Origin: Sipunculus nudus
Taxonomy: Eukaryota > Annelida > Sipuncula > Golfingiida > Sipunculidae
Direction: 5' to 3'
Assembly (NCBI GenBank): GCA_026874595.1
Contig: CM049316.1
Coordinates: forward strand, 37,371,695 to 37,435,694
Length of the DNA: 64,000 nt
The first letter of the stretch is position 1; each line of letters begins with the position of its first letter. Below the pieces are notes generated by a model that was not told where the DNA came from, did no database searches, and was given only the letters and a program-made list of their open reading frames with translations. The position numbers were made by a program, and so were the translations under genes. Positions 9,088-39,200 of the stretch are shown piece by piece.

Positions 9088-9853
9088 CACCCGCTGCACA
9101 TCATTTTTGTTCCCCTCTCATTTATGTATTACATACTGTAAATACTCTGCAGTCGCACACTTTGGCTTAGCTGAGAGATGGAGGGGAGTTTATCCGTAGG
9201 GCTTATTGGCTTAAGTTGCTCGTGCTGACTCTCAAAAGTCCCAGCAAAAAGGCACGAAGGTACTATCTTGGTTTGAGCCAAATAGAACCAAACCACGGGC
9301 ATGAAAGCTGTGCGTAATGTTAGTCACCTGTGTTTGGGTTCAGTTAGCCAGTATCACTGGTTTGGTCAAATTGAATTAAATACGAGTCAGCTGTCTTGAC
9401 ACGAACTTCACAGATAAAGAAAAGGTAGATTATTCTTGCTTTTATCACTTTGAAGTTAACCAGATATGATTTTTATTGAAAATGATCAGGACCCGAACTC
9501 TCAGTGTGATTTATTGCCGCGAGGTGGTGCATGTAAGGTGGAAAACATTTTTTAACGTTTGAATTCTAATGACCTCTAAAGAATGTAGTGTGGCTTATTT
9601 GCAGCAAATACTATTTAAGTAAATATTGATAAAATAATAGGTATTGTATCATATATTTCCTTATGTTGGTGCACATTGTCAGATGTATAATTCTTTACCG
9701 TTTCAATACTTTAAATCTTGTTAGGGAAGCAGTAGAAACTTAAGTATTTCTGCTTATGTTTTCAGATAATCATCGTCAGTGAAGTGGAACGTTTTCCGGT
9801 CGATGTTATTTCCGGTGCGTGGTCCTGTGGACAGTTTGACACATTTTGAAAGT

Positions 9854-10405
9854 ATGCGATACTGTTCTTTCTATCTATTATTGGTAACGCATGGATCGGC
9901 CATAACATCTGAGGACGCGCTTGCTTCTGTTGAGGTCAGTAGGTACATCCAGAAATCGTATGGTGCATATTGTGAAGTTCAGCCGAATCGACTTATCAGA
10001 TGTTGTATCTTCGGTTTAGAAGCTCAAGGAGAACAGTCTTTAATATGTAAAACTAGGACTGTTCGATACTGGAGGAAGCGAAGTTTACTAAAATCTGAAT
10101 CATATGATAATCACATCAGAATGAAGCGACAGGCTGAACAATATAACCTGACTAGTCAACCATTGTATACTTTAAATATGTCGACGACTGGAAAAGAGGA
10201 TATAATAACGCACGAGATAAACCCTACGAGTAGGAACGGCCAGAGTGTTTCCACGGAAAACCCACCAAATGCAAACAAACAATACATAATTGGCGCTGTG
10301 GTTGGTGTTGGTGTATTAGTGTTTTTCTTACTGGTTATATTCTTTTATCTCCGCCATCGTATGCGGCCCAAACCGGAACCAATGCCCGAGGTCCCCATAC
10401 GATAA
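9854..10405 (+). CDS. Unrecognised single-pass type I membrane protein (183 aa)
   Basis: Single open exon. An in-frame stop at 9767-9769 follows an acceptor-like TTTTCAG (to 9765), so the exon probably begins at 9766 with 5' UTR. ATG 9854 is chosen over ATG 9803 because it has A at -3 and puts a hydrophobic signal peptide (residues 1-16) at the N-terminus. Ectodomain about 17-143 with four cysteines (40, 50, 51, 65), dibasic sites (RKR 74-76) and two N-glycosylation sequons (NLT 98, NMS 108). Transmembrane helix 144-165, then a stop-transfer RHRMRPK and a short Pro-rich tail. No family recognised. The combined signal peptide, sequons, membrane segment and basic stop-transfer make a chance frame unlikely. 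Upstream non-coding exon(s) expected. Confidence 0.6.
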   Translation: MRYCSFYLLLVTHGSAITSEDALASVEVSRYIQKSYGAYCEVQPNRLIRCCIFGLEAQGEQSLICKTRTVRYWRKRSLLKSESYDNHIRMKRQAEQYNLTSQPLYTLNMSTTGKEDIITHEINPTSRNGQSVSTENPPNANKQYIIGAVVGVGVLVFFLLVIFFYLRHRMRPKPEPMPEVPIR

Positions 10406-10840
10406 AGATGAAACCACGCCCGCATGGCACAGCTTTGAGTTCCTTATTCACATTTTTACCCACAGGCACACAGACAGTATATGACAAAGTTGGAATTACC
10501 AAACGCTTGGCACCCGAGGGAGTGTTATCTTTTTTTTTCATTTTATTCATGGCATGATTCCAGTTGATTTATCGAATGTTTGTTTAGTTGCTTTTATATA
10601 CCAACAAGCTTAGAAAGTGTCTTTATAAAAAAAAGTCATTTGCAAAGGAAAGTGCTTTTATTTATTGAGCTATGTTTATCCTTACAAAATCCTGGCAACT
10701 TCATATCATAGATATGATAATACTCTGAAATATTTCCAAGAATTCGACATGACAATAATATTTAAGGTTACCAGGAGGTTAAGAGGGGACGTGTTTTTTT
10801 GTATGATGTTAACATTTGGGAGGCTTTTTTTTTTGCGTGG

Positions 10841-10841
<1 letters not shown>

Positions 10842-10918
<77 letters not shown>
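10842..10918. repeat. (TA)n microsatellite
   Basis: About 38 uninterrupted TA repeats. Flanking frames rich in Ile-Tyr are artefacts. Confidence 0.98.
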
Positions 10919-10922
<4 letters not shown>

Positions 10923-12975
10923 ATGACAATATAAAAAAAATCTGCCAAGATCATTAAGCACCAACCGATGTAACTAATAAATAGAGACAAACATATCCTG
11001 GTACATATTTGAAGTAAATAGAACATACAGTGTGTTTAAGGGTTCATTGAAGTTGTATATTCATTAACATTGTGAAATGTTGAATATTGAAAAATACATG
11101 GATGTGTGGTATATATTATATACCGGTAGAGATGTGTTCGTAGTATACATTATGTACAGTTTGATAAGCGCCAGAGAATGGACGAGATATGGGAATGATA
11201 TTTATTTATGGGGTGCTTGACCAAATCGTCAAATAGATTCATGTTAGCTCCACGTATATATATGTATATGTGTGTGTGTGTGTCAATGTGTGTGTGTATG
11301 GGGGTGAAATATACGATTCATTTAGCTGTCAACTGGTGTTTTTCATCAATGTTACATTTAGTTTATAGTCTAGCTATGATAGTATCTATATGAAAGTATC
11401 TATGGCACAAGGAAGTGTGAACAATATCACGAGGAAAATGACAAGAATAATTTACAATCATTTTATCACTGGTAGACACATAACACATACCCACAGTGCA
11501 AACAGGAGAGTGAATAATACATGCCGTGTGTTTTGCTTGTATTTAACTGCCTTATTAATCCTGTCAAGAGTATAAATAAAATATAGAGTCAATTATAATA
11601 TCTAGCATAATTACTCGCCTTGCGTAGTTTATGTAATTCGTGATAGATGACGCTTCATTAGCTCTTGATAAGGTGGAATTTCTCCGGATTTATGGGGGCA
11701 ATATGGGAAATGATTCCTTAGTACACTCTTGGCATCGTTAACGACAGTCCAGGACCAAAACAAGGACATTTCCGTGGCGTAGACACACAGGAGTTGCGTG
11801 AAAAAGCGAGTGGTACCACCGTCACTTACAATATAGATTATCCTTGGCTAAAACAACTCTGCATAATAAATTTTGTTAATGGCTCCAGTACATCAAGCAC
11901 GGCACTGCTTGATATGACCAAATGAGCAACACAATGTTTTGATTATTTTCAAATGATTTAGAGAGTCCTACCCTACTCAGGCCAAGTCGCTGAGCCTAAA
12001 ACAAGGAGACACTTTCTGTTAGGTATAGTTTCCTTTTCTTTTTACCGTTCCCTGCGTGAATTCGTCTGTGCAACTCAACACCAGATGACATAAGATAAGG
12101 CCAAAGCGATCATGTACATTCGATATTATGGATATTATAACACCAACAATCAATTAAGTACGTTGCACAATCCATTCTTCTTTTCTCTAACATCGCCAAC
12201 GATATTTCACCCAGTCTTTCGTTTTCCTCTCTTCATTTCATCCACTGCTTCATCTTTTCTTAACAATTTCTTTCTCAAAAGTTCTTCAATCCTTTCTTGA
12301 CATTGTCCGTGAACAGGCAGGAATGAATGCTAGTGAAGAAACGAGTACTTGAGTACCTGGGACACTCAAAACGAGTGTACTAGTCCAAAATAATATCATG
12401 CCTTTATGTATTCATTATCGTAGGGCTACGAACTTCATTTGGTATTAATTAGCTAGAGCTTACGTGACCTGTTTTGATACATGTATAGCTACAAACAACA
12501 GTTCAGATACTTTTTGTGACGATAAACAGAATATAAACACATTTCGATTAATATTTTCACGGTGTTGTCATAGCAATGGGTGGTGGATTCCGAGCTGTGT
12601 TATAGCTGTCGGGTACTGAAGTTCAGCATTTGCAACCCTGTTTCATCACGAATGAATATAGACCTACCAGACCGTACTTAATTACGTATGCCAATAAAAT
12701 ATGTAATAAAAAATGTGATCCCATGTAATGTAGACGTAAATGGGTCCGGAACTTTATGCTGGTTCATATACATGTCCTGGTAAAGCTTGACGGCCAGGGA
12801 ACCATAAATTAGTTATTTGATTTGCCACCAGATGACTGTACCATACATCAATGTAGCCAGTGTACATGTAAGTCGTATTTGCTGTACTGACTAGTCGACT
12901 GTGCCAGTCTACAACAAATACACTGGCAATGGAACTGCTCTATAAAAAGCCGACTTAACAGCCTGAATTATACAT
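10919..12975. other. No gene seen
   Basis: No exon-like segment. It contains short GT-rich tracts (11270-11300) and one dispersed-repeat fragment (12801-12836). Confidence 0.55.
12801..12836 (+). repeat. Dispersed repeat fragment with CCACCAGATG core (copy 2)
   Basis: TAAATTAGTTATTTGATTTG followed by CCACCAGATGAC; same family as 4149-4186 and 23940-23974. Confidence 0.6.
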
Positions 12976-12981
12976 TTTATT
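12976..12981 (-). terminator. Poly(A) signal after duplicate terminal exon 11b
   Basis: AATAAA on the minus strand about 39 nt past the TAA stop at 13020-13022. It supports 11b being a usable alternative 3' end. Confidence 0.6.
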
Positions 12982-13019: not shown

Positions 13020-13213
13020 TTATGCGCTGGAGACGGCCCGGGTAGCGGCAGCGAGGCCAGCGAAGATCTCCTCTCCGCTCTCTCTGATGTTGGGCACGGC
13101 AGGAATGACGAATCCTCCCTCAGCGGCCGTTGCAGGACGGAGTTCGGGTCCGTAAGCGTACTTGATATTGGCCACACCCTTGGCCCAGTCCATCGATGAA
13201 CCGGCAGCGGGAT
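13020..13213 (-). CDS. Duplicate terminal exon (11b) of the carboxypeptidase gene
   Basis: A second last exon lies downstream of exon 11 (13922-13732). It has a CCTCAG acceptor, the same splice phase (completing the split Tyr codon after exon 10) and an open frame of 63 codons plus TAA. The peptide is nearly identical to exon 11a: the same [10 protein letters not shown] start, the same catalytic ELRP, with changes such as YSYAP to YAYGP, EEVFAG to EEIFAG and AISA to AVSSA. It has its own AATAAA at 12981-12976. Flanking intron and 3' sequence do not resemble those of 11a. Most likely an alternative terminal exon giving a 428-aa isoform; the alternative is a remnant of a tandem gene copy. No other carboxypeptidase exon lies between 11a and 11b. 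Confidence 0.85.
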
Positions 13214-13698
13214 CTGAGGACAGTTATTCAGTTAATGCCTCTGATTCGCAATTGGAGATATATATACCGTAACAGATCTAATAAGCGCCCCTGCACTTCC
13301 ACGCATCCCTTCGTAATCGTGTTACCAAGGACAAAACGTTCAATGGTAGCAATCTTAAGTCGCATCATTTATTTCCTTGAATGTTAAGGCCACAATAGTA
13401 CATTAATTTCACCTTAACTGCCCTGGATTGGTGACGGAGCTTGCAAGACCTTACTTGGATGGTCAATGGTTAAGTTCATCGATTTCAGAAAGTCGGATAA
13501 AAGTGGGCTCAAAATGGGAGGGCATCCTCTTAAGTGATCGAAAACGCAACATTCTATATTGTTTACCGTCAAGGGCGCTTATTAAGTCAAATACGATATA
13601 TGAAGTTTGTCTACAAATATATTAATGCCGAAGTTTTAACGGGAAAAGTCACCGGAAAACACCAAACACACGCTCTGTAATACAATATCAAAGCATAT

Positions 13699-13704
13699 TT
13701 TATT
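13699..13704 (-). terminator. Poly(A) signal after terminal exon 11a
   Basis: AATAAA on the minus strand about 28 nt past the TAG stop at 13732-13734. Confidence 0.65.
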
Positions 13705-13731
13705 TCATTTCAACTGAGCGAGTCTAATTCC

Positions 13732-15469
13732 CTATGCGCTGATAGCCCGGGTGGCGGCAGCGAGGCCAGCGAAGACCTCCTCTCCGCTCTCTCTGATGTT
13801 GGGCACGGCGGGAATGACGAATCCTCCCTCAGCGGCCGTGGCAGGGCGGAGCTCGGGGGCGTAAGAGTACTTGATGTTGGCCACTCCCTTGGCCCAGTCC
13901 ATAGAAGATCCGGCGGCCGGGTCTAAAGTTAAAGTCACTCGCATTATTAGTTGAGCTTCAAGGGCTCTATTCCGATATCTTGCGTCTATTAACTCAGGAT
14001 TGTCCCTTTAACTGTTTATGAAATAAAGGCCAGGAAACACTTATCCCAGCACAAAGAGTTGGTCCTTTTTCATTATATCCACGTGTTTATAACATGTGGG
14101 GAGCACCCCCCCCCCCAAATAATTAAATAATCCAAACACATTAAACAAGGCTATCTGGCGACATGTCAGACATATCAGAGTTAAAGAAAGGGCGTTTCGC
14201 AACTAGGGATTTTTCAAATCCTGCACATATGCATAAAAACCACTTAAGGTTACCTGGTATTTCCGTTTGTCAATATTGCTGTGTTTACTAATAGCTTGTA
14301 GATATATACAAGCTAAGGCATCCACCACAGAGGCGTTATAAGAACTTTTCTTTAGAGGAATACAGGAGTTTATTAAAATGTATACAAAAATAAGATATAA
14401 ATCACATAAATTCTATAGAAATGTAGGTAAATGGCTGACTTATAGCCTTGGGCCATTTTTATTTTTATTTTTGGTTTACGCATATTTTGTGGAGGAGTTG
14501 AGTGTAGGGGGACATTAAGTACTAGCCCATGTTTTCATTCCCTATCCTACGCTGTGAGACATCCTAGATACCTAAGCCCAATATATGCAATCATCGGGGA
14601 CATAAACAAATGTTCACACTGTCAAATAATTACTGATATGTTAATTACCATGCGAAAAGTTCATAAATATAAGCATACATCAAAGGCAAATCTGAAAAAT
14701 AGATACCCAAGGATTTTAAAGCTCAGCTTAAATCTGCAGCCAAGTGAAAGCTATAACTAGAACAAACGTATACATACACTTCTACTGGTCTATAGACTTG
14801 TACACTGCTTATAACTGCTGTTTACAGGTAGGTAAAATATAATATAGACAACTGCAGTGAGCAGGGCATCAGCATTTTCTGAACTTTTCCTGAACCTAAC
14901 TGAATCTAGCTATGGGGTCATTTTTCATCATATATATATATATATATATATATATCTGCACATATTCTTAGGACAGTTTAGTGAAACTAGGCGAGTGAAA
15001 ATAAATTTATAAAACACTAATTTTCAAATTATGCGAAAGTTTCATATGCAATTTATTTTAGATTTGAGGGCCAAGAATGGTTTCTTTGCTGATAAATTTT
15101 GACCCATGTCGATGCAGATTTTAGCAATTATTGGTTGGTTAGGATTACACCAGGATAGCAGGGGCTTATTTCAACTGTTGCAGCCCGCATGCGTGTCAAA
15201 ATGTTACATTTCAAATTTCAACTGGCCTCGGGTTGCATTTAAATGGAACAATGACAGCAACATAGGTGGCACATTTCCTATTTAATTTTTAATCCAATGT
15301 TTTAATAACTTACCATGCATATAGATAAAAAAGATTATAAATATATATATTATATACATATTATGTATATGATTAATTATTAAACTATAATTACAATAAT
15401 GATATTAAGTTTTGATCTTTTACTTGCAATCATTTTTTATTAGATTTTAATAAATGTATGACAACTGTG

Positions 15470-15541
<72 letters not shown>

Positions 15542-18500
15542 TAACAGTTATGTCATTGAGATAAACCCTCAATGTCGAAAATTATTGTTTAAAGGAGCAC
15601 ATAAACTAAAATATCAGAAGTAAAAATATAACTGCTCAAACCAATAACATATATATCCTCATAACAACTTAGTGGGACTACATGTATATACGGGGATAAA
15701 AGATATACTTACAAAGGATATCAGGGGGAGTACCGACGACGAATTCACGTCCATTGACAGCGAAGATAGCATCAGCAGTAGCCCGGCCAACACTCAGCTA
15801 TAAAAATAATAGATAAAAACGACGAATCAGCAAAAATAAACGAACCGTTAATTACTCAAATTTCCTTACATCAAGTCGGCTGACCAAAATGTGACATGAC
15901 ATTATATGGACTTGTTAACAGTATCCCTGAGGAAACATTGTCTTTCGTGAGGATTAGTAAGATTTGAAAAAGACCATGCGTTATCAAAATTATAGTAGCT
16001 GTTGTTTGGATATAAGTAATTATATGTGTCAATAACAGGCTGTAGGATTTTCCCCGCAGATATAATAAAACAACACACCAATTTAAGTCGTCAAATTTAA
16101 ATCATCGAATGGCCGAAAGATCTGTCAAACTTTTGAATGGTTGATATTACAATGCTTAAACATATACCTCCGGCCTCTTAGTTAAAGTGATAATAAAGGC
16201 CATAAGGAGAGGAATTGATATAGGGCTGTGGCCTGTTTTCCTCATTGCTTTGCTTTGCAATAAAATATTGTTTAAACCAATAAAGGCCATAACAATCGCG
16301 GCAAGTACCAGCAAAAGATTAAAATGTAACATTTAAATGATACAAATATTTATTTGAAAGTTTGACAGCTGAGAAAAGAAGTCCCGGCCGTCCCACAGTG
16401 CCCGACTTGAAGAGGTTCGTTTGGGGTAGAAAAACGACCTCTGGCGTAAAGGTTAGTCAGTGACAGTTGACCTTGACCCTACTGTCATCTGGTGGACATA
16501 GAGTGAACTAGAATTTAATATGTTAATCATCCTCTGAATCCTAGAATTTGGTTTTCGGATCAGGATCATCTGCGCTGCATGAGACATTGCAGAAACACAG
16601 CTTGTTTAAATTCTCAAATGGAAATATGCTGTAGTGTCTTAGGTATAGTACCCTGGTCATCAGAGAAGCTGGCCAGCATACAAACCCGACTGCAATACTC
16701 TACCCCCTCCTCCCTTTGGAGGGGGATATGGAACGTAGAAAAAAGTATTACTAATGTAAACTCACGAGTTCGTTGTAGTCACTAGGGTAGACATAGTCGT
16801 AGGCCCACGGGACGAGCCAGAGCTGGGTATAGGCGTGCATGGTGATGAACATCCTCATGTTGGCGCTGTTAGCCTGGATGTAGTCAGAAACGGCGCGGGT
16901 AGCGGGCTCAGAGAAAGGGGAGTCTCCAGGGAAGATGTCGGAGCAGGGATCGGGGCTGACACCGCTGACTGCAACAAACAGTGGATATACAGTAAAATAG
17001 GAGCGAGGATCGGGGCTGACACCGATACTGCAACAAACAGTAGATATACAGTAAAATAGGAGAATGGATCGGGATGACACCGCTGACTGCAAAGGACATG
17101 AAAGAAGCGTAGTTTATTAATCTTTATTATATTTGACGTGCCACTCGACCTTTGTCGGACAATTCCCTGTGGTTACGCCTCGGAAATGCGAGTTTTTGGT
17201 CTTGAGGTGTTTACTGTTTTTTGGACAAGTAAATCCTACGTAAGTCTTTCACCATTTTTTCCCGTAAATCATGAAAGAAAATTATTTTCGAGACTAGCGC
17301 ATCACTATCTGTAAAAAAAACAGGTTAGAACGGGGAATATTCTAAAGCATAGCAATGTAGAACAACGGGGCTGACAGGAACAGACAGAACATGTGTTATT
17401 TATTGATAAATCAAAAAGGATGCATTACCGTTGCGTTTCGTTTTTCCATATGACTTGTGACATTTGATTCAAATAGGACCACCGGTAAAATATAAATGCA
17501 CACTGAGACGTGAATTCAAAGTTGACGGGTAAGGAGCAGTTTAGTAGTTATATTCTTACCTCCCCACTGGAAGTCCCAGTTACGGTTGGGATCAGCGCCG
17601 ATACATGATGGATCGGTGTCGGTGGGACGGCGGGTCTTTCTCCACAGGCGGTCCTATGATTATATGTATGTAAGGTAAATGAAAATGAGTAAGTATATCT
17701 AACGGATAAGTTAATGGTTTCCCGGGGGAAGCTATCTTGATATAGTTAATTAAAACAAAGCTGTTTTTTTTCAAGACCAGTGATTTTAATTTCTGACGCT
17801 GCTCTTATTCATATATATCCTTAACGGAGGAAAGATTATTATTCAACTCTGGTTTCCAGGTGATAAAACTTTAAATCTTCTCGGAGAGCTCATACTTTCC
17901 TCAATAACCGGACCTTCCCATTTAATACAATCCTGGCTGTTTATTTGGATATCAGCACTTCTACGAAAGATATACCCCTTGACGCAACCATTGATTGTTA
18001 TTGTCTTAAATATTCAAAAAAAGTAACCGCTAAACTCGGCTTCTCTAGTATGACACCATGTTACCCAGTCACAAGATCCTGACGATTTCAATAGAATGTA
18101 TAATATGAATTTTGTTCTTGTGCATGATCTTTTTGATTTTATATATGTCCTTGCTGTTCCCATTCACTTTAGTTACAAGCAACATAATGTGTGGAAAAAA
18201 GGAATTTGACCACTTAAAAAGTACTCATTAGTCACTCCCCATGGACAGATTTTGATAAGTTCAGAAATTATTTTTATAATGTCAAAAAAAAAATAAATAA
18301 AAAATCACATAGGATAAAAAAAACGTATATGGACATATGATGTATGTATGTACTTATGATGTACATATGTGTAAAAAAACAAATACAAGAAAAGGCAACA
18401 GATTTTCCCTGAAAATTCCTTACTATATAGAAATCGCAAACATGTAAGTAAATTTATCGAGTTAGATCTAGTTGCATATTATTCTACGTTTCATCATATA

Positions 18501-21500
18501 TTTCTTTCTTTTCTTTACAGGTTGAAATATCATCTATTATTTGTTAAATTTGCTAAGCATAAGACTGAAGACATGCATTTAAATGTTTCATTCCTCAGTA
18601 TGGAATTCACTGTGTTTAAAAGCAGATTTTAAAATCCACAAGTCACTCTTTTTTAATTATATCATATTTAAAAAATTCGGAGATTTAAAAAATCTTGACT
18701 TACACCGTCATGGGTGTACTGGTATCCGTCAGGGTTTGCCACGGGAACAACGTACCAATCAAAGCTGTCCAGCATTCTCTGAGCATCAGAGTTAGAGCTG
18801 TACTGATTCACAAGCTGTAACAGCCCAAGACATAATAATTATCATATAATCGACAAAAAAACCCTTATATATTTTCCAAAAATGTTGTCAATGCTTCATA
18901 TTTCAAATCAATTCCTCATGTTTGAAATCTGATCGATTGAAATTGTAGTTAACTGCAATATAAAGTTCTTGTTCTACCCCATTTCTTTTATTACCAATGT
19001 AGAGGTGGTCGGATAAATGCAACATATGATCGGTGATTATCGAGCTATGTTAAAAAAAAAGAAAGGTCCGCTTTAGAAGTATATGTAACCACTCATAAAT
19101 ATTAAATTGCATATATTTTTCATAACTACAATTTGGAAGAAATGACCATGAATCCGGTAATCAAGACTTTTTATGATATATCTCTCTTTGCCACTTAAAT
19201 AAGCATTCATTAATATGTACATTTCAATTTGCAACCTATGACACCTGTTTTCATCCAGCCGACGATAGATATTGACCTAAAACCTAACCCCATGTATTTT
19301 TCACTCCGATAAATACTGTGAAACCTGTGTAATAAGACCGCCACTGGAACAACATTTGTCTAAAATCTTAGGTGGTCTTATTGGACAGGTCAGTTATAAC
19401 CAGTGTGAATGCATTTGGTTTTTGGTGACCTTAAAGGACAGGTGGTCTTATTAGACAGGTGGTCTTTCAGACAGTTTCCACTGTATATGACACAGAAGCG
19501 GTGTCAATGGTACATTGGATACAGTGTTTTGTGTTTTATTTTAACTTTATAAAAATCTATTGAACGGGTAACCCCCGGAGCCTGTTTTTATAATATAAGG
19601 TTAGGTTTAAGCCCTAGATCATTTCTAATACCATCTACATTATAAATGACAGTGAGTTTTGCTTTCCTACTCCTCTGAGGCCGCGCCATGGACATCCCGT
19701 TTTTTTGGTCTTAACTGCCTGGGCGATGCCATATGTGTCATAAGGGGGGTCATTTCCCATATATCGCTAATAATCCATAGAATTTCGATATTTCTCCATT
19801 ACAGTGGCACCGATCAGCAATTATGTGAACAGTGCATTAATGAGAAACAATCTAGTAATTAATAATATGACGTTACGGTAGATCCCATTAACTCAAATCA
19901 TCCAATTGCAGCCAAAATAATTACCCTTGCCAATAACCAAAAAAAAAAAAGTACCGAACATAAGTAACAAATTGCAAAATAATCAACTGAGAAGGTACTT
20001 AGATATTTCAACAAAAATTCAGAGAATATTAAGGGTCATAATTCATGTCTATAAATAGAACTAACCTTGTCCATCACCCACAGGCAGGTGGCGGGGGAGA
20101 TCCACTCACGGGCGTGGATACCGCAGTCGAGCCAGATCTTGGGGCGGCCAGAACCTGTAGACAGCTGGAAAAAAAATGACACACACCAAATGTATATGTA
20201 CATGGCCATGAAAGGGTTATAGCTTGTGGACAGAGAGGTTTAGGTTCGAATCTGACATGGCAATTTTCATTTTGGTATGAAGAGTACACAGAGAGTTGAA
20301 AAACTAACTTTTCCTGTATTGAAGTTCACTTATCACGTGTTATATTGTAAAGAAAAATACGAAACGGAGTATTCGTTATCAATATAATAAAATATCATAA
20401 ATTTTAAATATGTATTCCAGGATGCCAGTACAAAATCAAATTTGAGGATAATGAGAACAAGTAATACATCTGTGAAGTGATTAATTGAATTCGGGATAGG
20501 CCATCCGCAAATAAATATATCTTTTCTGATGAAACCTGGCCTTCTGGTTAATTTATACAGGTCTATCTATAAATAAAAAAAACTCCCACGAATATTCCGT
20601 GGAATTCACCCATATTCATACAGACAAACCACGAAACATTTTTTTGTTAAAAACATGATACCCTAAACGCCTGTTCTTACCTTGGCGAGAGTGATAGAGC
20701 GGCCCTCGTAGGTGGTACCGATGCTCTCAACAGTCACTTTGTCAGAGTTGCTGGAGGCGAGCTGGGACACCCAGTTTTGTACCTGAAATAATCAAATAAT
20801 ATACACGTGACGTTACAAGTATGCAGCAGTGCTCCTAACAAGTGCCGGACCACCGGGATTTTCCGGTAGTTTTAACGGAGGTCCGGGCAAACAGCGTTGG
20901 TCTCTTGCACCTTGGGCGGAAGTTTGTTTTACAGGGAATGGTATAGGTTGTGTTTCGCAGGAGTGATGCAAATACTTTATTCATTGCTCAATAAAATAAT
21001 AGTTAATTCAGATTTAAGCGACTCGTCGTGAATTAATAAATTACATATTGTAAAATGTAAACAAAAATGTGCCGGACACCGTTGTACTGTCTTTGAAAAA
21101 TATTGAATCACCTAGTACCTGTGGTATGTAATTGATTAGTGTTTTCGCATATCACATGATTTAACTTCTACAGGTAAAAGAGGATTCGGAAATGAAAAGA
21201 AAACAAATGCCTTTGGCGAAACACGATGTTTCCAATTATAAATAAAAACTGCTGGAAAATTATATTGGACAAATAACTACGAGATGTCTTTGGCTTAGGT
21301 ATGTGATGTGTAAACAAAGCATGGTTTAGAGGCTTCATATTGTGGATAGCAAAGCATATCATGTATTTTAATTAAGTACCTTGCGGTGTCAGCAGTTTAA
21401 GCATTTTACGATAAAATCGTGAATAAAATATTTTCATGCCAAAGTGTTTCCCTGACTTTTTATATACACACAAGAATTGTAACAACATTAATTGCTGTGA

Positions 21501-24500
21501 ATTGGGAACTTTATCAAGGAGACCTCAAGATATCATAAATCGATAGCCTCATTTACTTTTATTTTCAGTCACAAGATTACACAAGATGCACAACATTTGT
21601 TTATTTGCCTTCCTTTAACAGATATGTGTGATTTTTTGACCGTAGAACTAAATTAGTTACCTCACTGTACTCCAGGTAGCGCTCGGGGGCGTCCAGGGGC
21701 ATGCCTTCGGTACCGTAAAGAGCCTTCTCAGTCTGTTTCATCTGGAGGTTCATTTCAGCTTCGGCATCGATCCAGCTATCAGTGAAAAGATTTTTTTTTA
21801 CCTATTCCCTAGGATTAAGTATAGTTTCCGGCATAGATTGACCCAACTATATGGGGTGTATGCTTCGTGATAAAGGTTTGCAAATATCAAACCCTATTAA
21901 GGCTTTTCAACATTCTTTTGTAAATGAAAATTTTTATGCGATACACATCTGGGAAAAAAAGGCTTTATAAATTAAGTAAATTTATTTATTTATATATTTA
22001 TTACAAAAAGGTTGGTGTCTCAATCACCACGCGCATCAATATTAAACATCTCGCATCAAAATATTTTATTTTGCTTTTCCATCCATAGAAGTTTGCCGAT
22101 ATTTGGCTCCAGCTGCCTCGATATTTTTTCAAGAAGATAAAAAATGATTCCAAAAATGTTGTCCTTTGTTATTATGTGTTTTTGTATCTTTAGGTAAAAT
22201 GATCCTGTTATTATCATGCCTTCACCTAATAATATGAAATTTACATTGAAAGCCTAGAATAAAAGTTTACCCTTGGACATCAGTGTTGATGACCTCGTGG
22301 TGGATGTTTCTAAGGTAACGAAGGAAGGTGGGAACAAGGTCGGGAGCGATCACCAGCTCAAAGGCTTTCAGGCCCTGAGGGTCTGACCAGAAGATGACCT
22401 GTCCAGAGGAAAACACGGGGACATTTATAATAATAATATATTTTATTAAAGTGTACCACAGGCAGCGGTTATACACTACAGTCGTCCCAGGAATCTTAAC
22501 CGCTGCTTGGTATGGCAAGGTTTTCCGTGCAGGAACACCAGGGTGCGCACAGAACACATAATTGTAATCAGACCACTGAGAGCATGGTATAAATTTTAAA
22601 CATGCGACACCCGCTCTCTTGGGTCTGACCAACGAGAGCTTGTGTCCCAGTGTTGGACAACTGCAGTGTATATACCGCTCGTGAGGGGCGTATTAAAGGT
22701 ACAACATGTAATATTCGCAAATAAAATTTAAAAAATTGTGAAATTCACTTCTATTCTCAGAATGCTTATGGAGCACCTCTCACTATAAAGAGTATAAGCG
22801 ACAGTATATATAGGCAGTTTACTTAAAAGAAATTAAGTATTAAACAATTGTCTTATGCATGTGCGGCAAATAGTGTAATTCCATTCATAATATCTGAATT
22901 ATTTAGCAGGTATTTTGAGTTTTCACTTTCTGATATTGTTTCAATATTATCCCCATTGTTCAAAATTGCAACAACAAATAAAATGGGATCGGAGCAAACC
23001 GTGTTTTTCACACGTTAAGAGAAATTGCGTGGTATCCTCGACAGTGCTGGAGTAACATGCTTGATATATTTTGTCGTGTCGTGGACTCGTGGGATATTAC
23101 GGTAATGTCATCTTTCTACTTAATATAAAACTTTATATAAAATTATGCATACGATCAGAAAGATTGATTTTAGATATATGGATTTTGCCCATTGTGCTGC
23201 TTTGAATGAAGAACTCTACTGAAAGCATTATAAAACCACTAAGGTCAGCTTGTTATTGGTTGAGTTTCAAATTCTGTTCATCTGCGTTTCCATTAAAATC
23301 GTAACATTGAAACCATGCAAAGAATGCACCTGATACACTTGAACATAGAATTGCTTCAATGTTATAACTGTGACCCTTGATTAACGTTGATGATCTGATA
23401 GTCAAACCTGACGTTTTTTCAAACGTGCTTTCGCAGAAAAATATCAGCAGGAGATTTTATCAGTTTACATAATATTTAAACTGCCATATTTTTGGATTGT
23501 TTGTAAGGATACGCAACTATGCATTGGTAGGGGGTACTAACATACTAAGTTTTATTCAAACATGTGTAATCGCAGAAAAATATCAGCAGGAGATTTTATC
23601 AGATTGCATAATATTTAAGCTGTCGTATTCTTTTTTTTTTTAATAAAAATGATAGAAATAAAAACATCCTAAGTTTGAATCTCGCGAACATAACGCCTAA
23701 CAACAGTATACTGACCTGTCTGTCACGTAGGAAGAGGTTACTGAGTTTGGTGATGGCGTCCACTTCTCTCTGAGAGCGGAATGGACCCATCTGGATCAGC
23801 TGGTATCTGACAGGACACCGAAGTAAATTAAAATCTAAAAAACACTTGATCTGCCAGGCCATCAATAATTATATCTCCACTCTGTCGTGTGAAGCAATAT
23901 TAAATTCCAAGTCTCGGTAGGCTCAACTGAGCCTTGTTTCATAATTAGTTCTGTAATTTGCCACCAGGTGGCACTTAGTAGGTGGAGTATGTTATCGATT
24001 GGGCCAGTCTAGGAACAGTGCCAACATCATGATCATTACATCCATTTTAATGCACGTGATCACATTATAGAACTATGTCACTCTTTGTTGCCAAAAATGA
24101 TATAACACATTGGTTGATCAATTACATTAATAACTATTTAGTTTTTCTATATGGCATTTCATTTTCAAATGATCTCTGAATCTAAGATTTTACCGTACCG
24201 CAAGAAGTAACATTCACATGTGTGGCTATATTCGTTGTTATATCTTTCTTTATGGCTAATAGCAGAAGTGAAACATAGAGTGACTCATATATTCTTAAAG
24301 GAGTAGATTTGACCGATAATTTTGACAGGTAGTTAACATAAACGAACCTTGATTCAGGTCTAATTTATCAAATTTATTAAACTTTCTGCTGTCATTTACT
24401 GCTCAATTTTTAACCTGTCATTCTCGTGTACTTTAAAAATTTATATAAATAAAGCCGTTATATAAAAGGATTAAGAAAACAACAAATGTACGGAATTAAT

Positions 24501-24590
24501 ACCCATAATGCACAGCTTTACTTACCCGTCATAACGGATTTTTGCCGCGGCAACTGCCAGAATGAAACACACCACCGCTGTCCGGAACAT
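13732..24590 (-). CDS. Secreted zinc carboxypeptidase (M14A, carboxypeptidase A/B-type), complete, 11 coding exons
   Basis: Exons (minus): 24590-24526, 23806-23716, 22398-22271, 21775-21661, 20782-20681, 20164-20066, 18814-18704, 17653-17560, 16968-16766, 15797-15713, 13922-13732; 1284 nt, 427 aa, all junctions GT-AG and in phase. Hydrophobic signal peptide at residues 1-16, then an activation propeptide to about residue 110, then the catalytic domain. Visible catalytic set: zinc ligands H184 and E187 (HARE motif) and H313 (ITMHAY); substrate carboxylate binders R245 and N260-R261; Tyr248 equivalent Y365; catalytic Glu E388 (APELRP); disulfide pair C254/C277. The S1' specificity residue (position 255 in bovine CPA numbering) is Met372, so a hydrophobic C-terminal residue, CPA-like, is predicted; that is inference from the family. 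Likely a digestive zymogen that removes C-terminal residues outside the cell. Length fits the family (about 420 aa). The start has A at -3 and lies about 35 bp from a TATA box. Confidence 0.93.
14040..14350. repeat. Dispersed repeat, copy A (in carboxypeptidase intron 10)
   Basis: Aligns with 32290-32530. Shared blocks include TATATCCA-GTTTATAAC, AATAATCCAAACACA, GGTTACNTGTT, ACTGTGTTTAC, AACAAGCT and CCAC-GAGGCGTTATGAGA-like text. A C run here occupies the place of a G run in the other copy. Confidence 0.65.
14930..14955. repeat. (TA)n microsatellite
   Basis: Thirteen TA repeats inside carboxypeptidase intron 10. Confidence 0.95.
15471..15538. repeat. (TA)n microsatellite with one TG interruption
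   Basis: About 33 TA units, interrupted near 15509, about 175 bp downstream of exon 10 on the coding strand. Confidence 0.95.
16480..16516. repeat. Dispersed repeat fragment (GTCATCTGGTGG, GAGTGAACTAGAATTT)
   Basis: Similar to 32041-32086 and 41323-41371: each has a YCATCTGG-like core, then AGAGNGAACTANAATTTTAT-like text. Probably remnants of one family, possibly the reverse orientation of the CCACCAGATGGC repeat. Confidence 0.45.
16941..17100 (-). repeat. Local tandem repeat duplicating the intron 8/exon 9 acceptor of the carboxypeptidase
   Basis: Copies at 16941-17000, 17001-17059 and 17060-17100 (partial), period about 60 bp. Each contains the first bases of exon 9, the TGCAG acceptor and flanking intron. 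Copy 1 is the working acceptor: it joins in frame to exon 8 and runs into the full exon. Copies 2 and 3 are decoys further upstream in the intron; using the third would enter the exon in a different frame. Confidence 0.85.
19317..19484. repeat. Dispersed palindromic repeat (TGGTCTTATTAGACAGG type)
   Basis: Left end GAAACCTGTGTAATAAGACC, right end GGTCTTATTAGACAGGTGGTC then AGTTTCCAC. The ends are roughly inverted copies and the internal GGTGGTCTTATTGGACAGG repeats, as in a small foldback or MITE-like element within carboxypeptidase intron 6 (between the exons at 20164-20066 and 18814-18704). Confidence 0.5.
22462..22632 (-). mobile_element. Two-hairpin dispersed repeat, copy 1 (carboxypeptidase intron 2)
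   Basis: Read on the minus strand: GTCAGACCCAAGAGAGCGGG to GCTCTCAGTGGTCTGATTAC forms one inverted pair; GCAGCGGTTA to TAACCGCTGC, flanking CGACTGTAGTG, forms a second. Same order in copies at 31544-31747, 51073-51282 and 54233-54338. Confidence 0.75.
23940..23974 (+). repeat. Dispersed repeat fragment with CCACCAGGTGGCAC core (copy 3)
   Basis: Lies in intron 1 of carboxypeptidase 1. Its core fits the CTCF-type consensus CCASYAGRKGGCRS. Binding is inference. Confidence 0.6.

Positions 24591-25363: not shown

Positions 25364-25375
<12 letters not shown>
24887..25375. repeat. Palindrome cluster upstream of the carboxypeptidase promoter
   Basis: A long inverted repeat has left arm about 24887-24948 and right arm about 24992-25055 (ATTCCTGTTTTTC, GGAAGAATGAGAGTTCTCAT, TTTCCCRGGAAG); the core is itself near-palindromic. 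Further partial units of both orientations fill 25167-25375. Confidence 0.8.

Positions 25376-25428
<53 letters not shown>
25366..25428. repeat. (TA)n microsatellite
   Basis: About 31 TA repeats abutting the palindrome cluster. Confidence 0.97.
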
Positions 25429-25432
<4 letters not shown>

Positions 25433-25601
25433 TGGCCGATGCAAAAGGACTCCGGTAGGATATCGCGCATTTTATAACAAAGGTAATGAACAATTACACC
25501 TAATACTTACACCGACAGGTGTGCTCTTTTAATATGGCAAAATATATACCCAAGATAGAACTGGAAAATGTTTTGTATAATCAAAGCTAAATGTTGACCT
25601 G

Positions 25602-36229: not shown

Positions 36230-39200
36230 TCATAAATGGGACTGCTGTTTTAGGCCATGGGAACTCCCAGAAAAATGTGCACCATTGTCCAGGTCAAACA
36301 CGGACAAGTTTAGCGGGGGGACATCCTTGTGTCTTTCTGGCCGATATGGTATATACCCGTTGAGTTTGCTCTTATACTGTCTCTGGTATTCGCAAAGAGT
36401 TCCTGTTGAACGGAAAGACAGTACTTCTTCATCTTCCATGTTAATACTGAGGCGGTTAATGTTGTCCATGCTGCCACCAGGACGTGGCGTACCCCACGAG
36501 CTGCTCACAGAGAGCCTCAGGGGATTTAGGCCAGCCTCCATGGCACTTAAATACGAACCATCCTGGTAATGCTGCAGTCCAATTTGAGTATCGCTGTGGG
36601 AAAATGAAGCATGTTTTTTAATGCCCAGACGGGCACCCCCCTGCAGGTAGGCATGAGTTGTGCATTCTAGCGGGATTTCATGCAGTGATTCACCGGAATC
36701 GGAGCTATCGTATCCAGAGTTATCGGTTGGCTGCTGTATCTGCAGCGTAGGCAGTGTGCTGTTAGTGAAGGAATGAGATGGCTTAATCAGTCTGGCTTGG
36801 TAGCCTTTAGGCGTGTATGGTGGAAGAGGACCTGCAGAATAGACAAAGCGGAAGCAGGGATTATTAACAGCGGCATGCACCCATCACCTTATAATCAAGC
36901 TTCAATATATACATAAAATGATCATATGATTTAAAAGCAGGAGAGGAAAAATCATCCAAACATTTTTATATAAATGCCATACCAAAAAAGGTAATTGTTC
37001 GTCTTAATTACTGCTCCCATTTTCATGTATAATTATTTTGGTGAGTGACCACAAAGTCCTTGGTGTTAATTGCTATTATTTTCTAAGTCATTTATAAAAA
37101 AAATCATTATAAGTGTCATAAATAAAAATTTTCATTCAGATAGATATCAAGTTGTCACTTTTTTTATCATTTCAAAATATTTTACATATTTTTTCTCAAC
37201 CAGCAAAACTTTCATTTAAAATGATTTTGCCATCCATGATAATTTTTCTGGTTCAGAATATTTTTTTGCAGTCTTTACTGACTGGATAAAGATAATTGAT
37301 GAAAATGCTGTTAACCCAGTCTTATCAGAATCATCATGCCCCATGGTTAACTGTCGATATAAATCTGGTGTTCACAAGCAGGAAATCTCTCAAATGACTC
37401 GTTTTTTTTTAAATAAAATTATTTGGATGACTGGCCTTCACTTTTAAGTTAACACAGAAGTGACCTCCACCAAAAACAATATCAGGTGTGTATGTCACAT
37501 ATAAATGATATGCAAGGTGAGCTGTCAGTTACAAATGAAAGAATCCTATCTGGATACATCCATCAAAGGTTTACAATATAGTTGATAGGATTACCCTAAG
37601 ATGTAACCTGTTCTACTTATGTCATTCAAATACTTTCATTAAATATGAAAAAAAAACTATGTATTTTGGGCTTAGGAGCTTGAATTTTATAGAACCCCCT
37701 TTTTTCTAACTCTGCATGCAACATACTTAACAAAAACATTACAACACCACTAAGAAATACATAAAGATAAGATCTGACAACAAATCTAAGCAAAAATGAC
37801 ATTATAAGTAATAAAACTGGAATAAAGATACTATCACTTCCTTATAAGGTTTAAATGCCCTGGCATTTAATTTCATTTGTACAAATTAAAGTAGAATGTG
37901 TAAGGAATAGAAAATTATTATAGCTACTGTTACTCAATAGGGAGAAATACAGACAGAACATGACATTTTAAAATTTGCGCGAGTTTGGCCCTGGAAATTT
38001 TAGGATATTGGTCATTTAAGTTAAAGAAATAAAATTCTTTCTACTTGTTGTTTGGAATCGCATATTTAGGACTAAGATCAAGATATGAGAAAAACAAATT
38101 CCATACTGATTCCTGGTCAAATGGATAAAAAAACATTTTTTCCAGCCTTCTGCTTCTTATTTACATTTGGAAAAAAAACAATGGCAGATCTATATAATTT
38201 TACCCTGGTTTTGAAATGAACTAGAAATTAAGCCCAGAATGGTCACAAAACATTTTGTTTTTCATTTTGTGTACCTTCATTCTCGTGATCTTCCACTGTG
38301 ATATCAGATGCAACAAGTCCCTGTCCCAGGCCAGCTTCACTGGCTATAATTTGGGGCAGTTTAAATTTATTGAAGGGCACTGGTTTGAGCACTTCTCCGT
38401 CATCGCTCTTGGCGGAGCTCTTAATTAACGATGCAGTGCGTGCCAAACTATCTGTTTCAGACCCAGCTCCAGAGTCAGTTGTGACATCAGCCCCATCTGG
38501 TGGTAGAAACAGAAACAAAATGCAAAGTTCCACAGCAAACACACACACTGGTGAACAAACTCTAGTGCAAAACACAATATAACCAATCAACACCAAATAT
38601 ATCTAATTAATTCATAATAATATAGACTATTAATTAATATAGAGGATCATTCACAAACATCACAAATACATTTCACATATTAGTTTATGCAAATTTGTGT
38701 ACAATGATAAAACTGCTGTGAAACAGGACATGCTGAAAACCGGCTCCAAACACTCTGAAACCAGTGGCCATAACATGCACAAGGACAACAAACACACTCC
38801 AGGCAACTCTGATGATTGTCAATGTCATTATCCTTACCCCAGCCTGTGGACTTTTAAAAGTATTTGTGGAAGAAAGAACAGACAGTTCTTAGACACTCAT
38901 GAGAAGTGAATGTAGGATTAAAGAAATTGTGTCTAACCAATGCCAAATCCACTCAATTCTCAAGTAAACCATCATTTTGTGACCTCATCAACCTTTTGAA
39001 AGACCTATTTCACAAGTAGGTCCATCATTTAGGCATGCAAAAATTAAAGTTGAGGTTATATGTTTATGACAGTCTAGATTTCTCATATGGTCAATTTCAC
39101 CTTAAACAAGTAAATATCTCTCTTTTTTCAACTACTGGAATTACTTTATTGTATTTACATGACATCAACCAAATGGCAGTTTTCTATCTTCTATGAACAT

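Follow-up and report, generated by a model that had tools for sequence, protein, structure and literature searches.

A tandemly duplicated and probably alternatively used last exon in an M14 procarboxypeptidase gene of Sipunculus nudus

The analysed stretch of Sipunculus nudus DNA (64,000 nucleotides, here called the window) contains on its minus strand (24590-13020) an M14 carboxypeptidase gene with 11 coding exons and GT-AG borders. Two versions of the last exon, 11a and 11b, follow exon 10. We read the locus as an M14 procarboxypeptidase gene whose last exon is duplicated in tandem and used alternatively, and give this reading a probability of roughly 0.7. The observation holds in the predicted gene structure, with two last exons that lie 0.7 kb apart, are both intact and could stand in for each other, and the exon pair very probably is functional coding sequence.

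The gene starts with an ATG at 24590 and ends at 13732 via 11a or at 13020 via 11b (Table 1). For both ends the frame was open across all 11 exons, with 427 aa for the 11a form and 428 aa for the 11b form. Pfam searches with the two predicted isoforms returned Peptidase_M14 (PF00246) with E values of 3.2e-90 and 2e-89, and the activation peptide Propep_M14 (PF02244) with an E value of 6e-5 for both (23.5 bits, cut-off 22.1). The best PDB matches of the predicted protein were carboxypeptidases B, A4 and A2. The zinc ligands HxxE and H, Arg145, Tyr248 and Glu270 (ELR) were all present and aligned with CPB and CPA4. Residue numbers, including Met255 and positions 266 and 268, follow bovine CPA numbering. 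Domain, activation peptide and key residues of the predicted protein are those of the A/B subfamily, and on this basis the gene is an M14 (CPA/CPB-type) procarboxypeptidase.

Table 1. Predicted features of the carboxypeptidase gene (window positions)
Feature	Position	Strand	Basis
Exon 1	24526..24590	-	start codon at 24590; frame and GT-AG borders
Exon 2	23716..23806	-	frame, GT-AG borders
Exon 3, activation peptide	22271..22398	-	frame, borders, Pfam
Exon 4	21661..21775	-	frame, GT-AG borders
Exon 5	20681..20782	-	frame, GT-AG borders
Exon 6, HAREW zinc motif	20066..20164	-	frame, PDB alignment
Exon 7	18704..18814	-	frame, GT-AG borders
Exon 8, DPNRNW	17560..17653	-	frame, PDB alignment
Exon 9, MHAYTQLW, third zinc ligand	16766..16968	-	frame, PDB alignment
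Exon 10, donor common to both last exons	15713..15797	-	ends at 15713 before GT
Exon 11a, stop TAG, Ser266 and Ala268	13732..13922	-	frame, AG
Putative AATAAA signal after 11a	13699..13704	-	begins 28 nt into 3' flank
Exon 11b, stop TAA, Ala266 and Gly268	13020..13213	-	frame, AG
Putative AATAAA signal after 11b	12976..12981	-	begins 39 nt into 3' flank

Several other features of the window were recorded. Exon 9 has its acceptor and first bases within a 59-bp tandem repeat of three copies (16968-17100, minus strand). The first exon bases of the copies lie at 16968, 17027 and 17086, and by the repeat spacing, splicing at one of the two AGs farther upstream would change the reading frame. Long AT dinucleotide runs were seen at 10837-10924, about 14930-14955, 15472-15538 and 25366-25433, two of them inside intron 10. 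A 217-aa open frame on the minus strand (36230-36883), possibly an exon of another gene, had no Pfam match at E 1. On the plus strand, a 211-aa open frame that has a hydrophobic stretch towards its end (9770-10405) matched Mid2 alone, below the Pfam cut-off (19.4 versus 23.2 bits). Scanning the window for Rfam families and for tRNAs gave 0 matches.

The two last exons lie in the same orientation, 709 bp apart start to start. Exon 10 joins either of them in frame; both copies are preceded by AG and share the phase, with exon 10 supplying one base of the Tyr248 codon, its first, and 11a or 11b the last two. An earlier note on this DNA had described such a pair, and its coordinates for the end of exon 10 and for both last exons were correct. 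The two copies end in different stop codons. The identical phase and intact frame that it described were confirmed, and each copy does have its own putative AATAAA signal, on a strand where this hexamer has a background of 1.36 per kb. Exon 11b carries one extra codon. The copies share 91% identity over 180 ungapped nucleotides, and 88% over 198 columns when aligned by blastn (E 3e-70). Comparison of intron with intron and of 3' flank with 3' flank (blastn, word size 7) gave just matches of 8-24 nt with a best E value of 1.4, and so bore out the statement that introns and 3' flanks are unrelated while the coding parts are nearly identical. A retro-copied gene end was rejected, as the similarity sets in at the splice junction and does not reach past the stop codon.

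Two similar exons just 709 bp apart might reflect a duplication made during assembly. This is argued against because the flanks of 11a and 11b are unlike on both sides; the copies also differ by about 10% and lie on a single contig of 79 Mb (C11). In a DNA search of the 1.43 Gb, 153-contig genome, which skips very common words, 11a and 11b were the only two matches reported. We regard an assembly artefact as very improbable.

The divergence between the copies was then considered codon by codon. The 63 aligned sense codons hold 15 silent and 4 replacement changes (dS 0.40, dN 0.029, omega 0.07). A neutral 11b would be expected to show about 22-28 replacements, against the 4 seen (P 4e-6 to 2e-8). 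Neutral evolution of 11b is rejected by this codon comparison, and the test of synonymous against non-synonymous changes raised in the earlier note points to purifying selection on 11b. The silent differences were unevenly spread (maximum z 3.98, permutation P 0.0024): the first seven codons contain 6 silent and 0 replacement changes, and few silent changes follow. A longest-run test for conversion was borderline (P 0.044). These tests concern one exon pair, and the breakpoint leaves just seven codons on one side. Gene conversion, also suggested in the earlier note, is supported as a conversion-like pattern.

Silent sites were further compared with five of 25 paralogous terminal exons (L025 to L029). 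Beyond the first six codons, same-residue codons were identical in 40/49 cases for 11a and 11b, and in 12/32, 14/30, 11/30, 15/27 and 17/30 cases for 11a and the five paralogues. Given the low identity with the paralogues, silent constraint does not account for the silent identity between 11a and 11b. Within the first six codons, the counts were 1/6 for the pair and 1/2, 0/2, 2/3, 3/4 and 2/3 for the paralogues. A protein tree of 25 terminal exons did not place 11a and 11b as sisters, with weak forks. Tree and silent-site comparison took 25 of the 27 rows, leaving out the two shortest matches (L047 and L049).

The simplest history consistent with these sequence comparisons begins with an old duplication, with purifying selection acting on the two copies throughout and partial gene conversion following later. 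The exon would have been duplicated long ago, after which introns and untranslated flanks diverged beyond recognition. Selection would have kept both coding copies, and conversion would have overwritten much of the coding part beyond about codon 7. The patchy silent differences would also fit conversion acting on a relic, in which 11b is unspliced, or spliced as noise, and is kept intact by being overwritten from 11a. Repeated conversion of this kind could preserve 11b without selection, and the weak acceptor described below fits a relic as well. However, the first seven codons, which look unconverted, still show 6 silent and 0 replacement changes, total replacements are far under the neutral expectation, and AG, stop and AATAAA are all intact. 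We consider a relic unlikely.

Analysis of the splice acceptors did not agree with the earlier description of both as good. Each has 8/16 pyrimidines, and the scores were 1.1 for 11a and 2.0 for 11b. All nine acceptors farther upstream in the gene scored higher, at 2.5-11.3. A matrix built from these nine sequences was discarded as overtrained, and leave-one-out scoring and a generic model were used instead. Leave-one-out scores were -0.9 to 7.2 for the nine acceptors, -1.9 for 11a and -4.4 for 11b. Thus either way of scoring rates the two acceptors as weak. Among 27 terminal-exon acceptors, 11a was the lowest and 11b the third lowest; all 27 matches keep an AG two bases before codon 249. When 137 AG sites from about 15682 to 13000 were scored with the generic model, 36 lay above 11b and 38 above 11a. 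RNA folding around both acceptors, limited to local pairing, was no better than in shuffled sequences (z 0.66 and 0.25). Judged from these scores, weak acceptors fit regulated use, and they fit poor use of 11b equally.

Alternative use could proceed as follows. Exon 10 would be spliced to 11a, and the message would end at the 11a poly(A) site. Alternatively, exon 10 would be joined to 11b, with the weak acceptor and the poly(A) site of 11a both passed over. Because each last exon ends the protein, skipping 11a would suffice and no dedicated exclusion machinery would be needed.

We next turn to the two predicted proteins. The claim that they differ in part of the active site stands for the pocket position 268, with 266 near it, but not for the catalytic residues. 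Tyr248, Met255 and Glu270 are identical in both. The differences between 11a and 11b are Ser/Ala at 266, Ala/Gly at 268, a Val/Ile and an Ile/Val exchange, and one additional Ser close to the C terminus. According to a study that covers M14 A/B carboxypeptidases such as the CPO paralogues, residue 255 sets the specificity of these enzymes and positions 203, 207, 243, 247, 253 and 268 tune it (PMC9925722). Of the pocket positions named there that fall in the last exon, 268 is the one that differs. By the rule of the same study, Met255 predicts a preference for hydrophobic C-terminal residues. Over 25 terminal exons of the genome, column 268 is A, G, L, S or T. At 266/268, L025 has A and G as in 11b, and L026 has S and A as in 11a. 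The exchange is thus small, but of a type by which paralogous genes also differ. As to the ancestral copy, these residues point both ways, with L025 resembling 11b and L026 resembling 11a. From the predicted sequences, we infer that catalytic residues and the hydrophobic Met255 are common to the two isoforms, and that position 268, with 266, gives each a subtly different S1' pocket.

Both last exons may, however, be used and yield equivalent proteins, the value of the pair being separate 3' untranslated regions, or nil. The five residue differences are just that few, and conservative; catalytic residues and Met255 are the same, and the unrelated 3' flanks would suit a role in the untranslated regions. 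The Ala/Gly exchange speaks against equivalence, since it falls on a pocket position named in PMC9925722, and this position varies among paralogues. We give equivalence a substantial chance, somewhat short of even odds. In a more far-reaching form of the alternative-use reading, one protease gene would yield two enzymes with different substrate preference by choice of the last exon; conversion would keep the scaffold alike and selection would hold the 266/268 difference. This extension is tentative, and we would bet against it at present.

To judge how rare the pair is, the genome was searched with peptides of the gene. These searches score the best candidates only, and their counts are lower bounds: the 11a peptide gave at least 27 matches, 22 of them on C11, and exon 9 gave at least 27, two with E above 1. 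Pairing of exon-9 matches with terminal exons by strand and location (within 15 kb) gave 22 with one terminal exon, the present gene with two and four with none. Three terminal exons (L040, L047 and L048) were without an exon-9 match. Each of the 27 loci was also searched with its own peptide over 1.5 kb per side, and no same-strand pair besides 11a/11b was found; L030 and L047 are 1.5 kb apart on opposite strands. By these searches, 11a/11b would be the sole such pair among the loci examined.

Some observations on the paralogues are added here. The M14 terminal exons (L023-L049) cluster, with 22 of the 27 matches on C11 and several of them near neighbours. A tblastn search (E 0.01) of 264 kb that take in the window and its surroundings showed one other M14 gene, with a single terminal exon at 55491-55300. 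It lies on the minus strand from 55300 and extends beyond the window to about 64023. The apparent end of its exon 10 is AGC G|gtaag and the apparent start of its exon 11 is GT; therefore position 248 would be Gly, not Tyr. For 10/27 terminal exons, the two bases after the acceptor are unfit for a Tyr248 codon there, and L025 has a Tyr one codon later. The exon-9 match of L025 (G000:C11:44891657-44891842), the closest terminal-exon paralogue, contains a TAA; it may be a pseudogene, or the match may run past the exon.

Alternative exons of Drosophila silver/CPD were considered as a possible parallel and set aside; a literature search for them returned no papers. Duplicated last exons of the present kind are already known in other genes. 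A report on oyster AOX (Crassostrea virginica and C. gigas) describes a duplicated terminal exon that is used alternatively (PMC5589949). As in the present case, an enzyme gene has its last coding exon duplicated in tandem with a stop per copy, and key residues are kept in both copies; the AOX isoforms are equal in length. Both AOX isoforms were shown as mRNA in C. virginica and respond to stress, whereas the two carboxypeptidase isoforms are predicted from DNA. AOX copies are 63.5-65.9% similar, compared with 88-91% identity here. The long AOX form contains the two exons together and terminates at the first stop. The AOX 3' UTR is duplicated in part; in contrast, the 3' flanks of 11a and 11b are unrelated, each with its own AATAAA.

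Drosophila pip and PGRP-LC, as described in PMC9013439, likewise have tandem homologous terminal exons or 3' variable regions of which one is chosen. There are eight repeated clusters in pip, against two exons here. The PGRP-LC choice is reported to act via competing RNA structures, whereas the 11a and 11b acceptors show no local structure above chance. The CPO paralogues belong to the same family as the present gene, M14 A/B carboxypeptidases with specificity set by 255 and tuned by other pocket positions. In that study, whole genes were duplicated and specificity shifted (PMC9925722); in the present gene the last exon alone is duplicated, and therefore a single locus would hold the two variants of the pocket. 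No M14 precedent for a duplicated last exon turned up in a limited search of open papers, and the text of a study of human tandem duplicated exons (PMC9741552) was without the last-exon or gene-conversion terms looked for.

For genome annotation, gene predictors may merge the 11a and 11b ends or lose one of them. Should 11a and 11b both be in use, one locus would supply two pocket variants of a well-understood enzyme. The pair would then be a compact system in which to ask whether enzyme specificity is tuned by tandem last exons, and what conversion and selection each contribute to maintaining duplicated exons.
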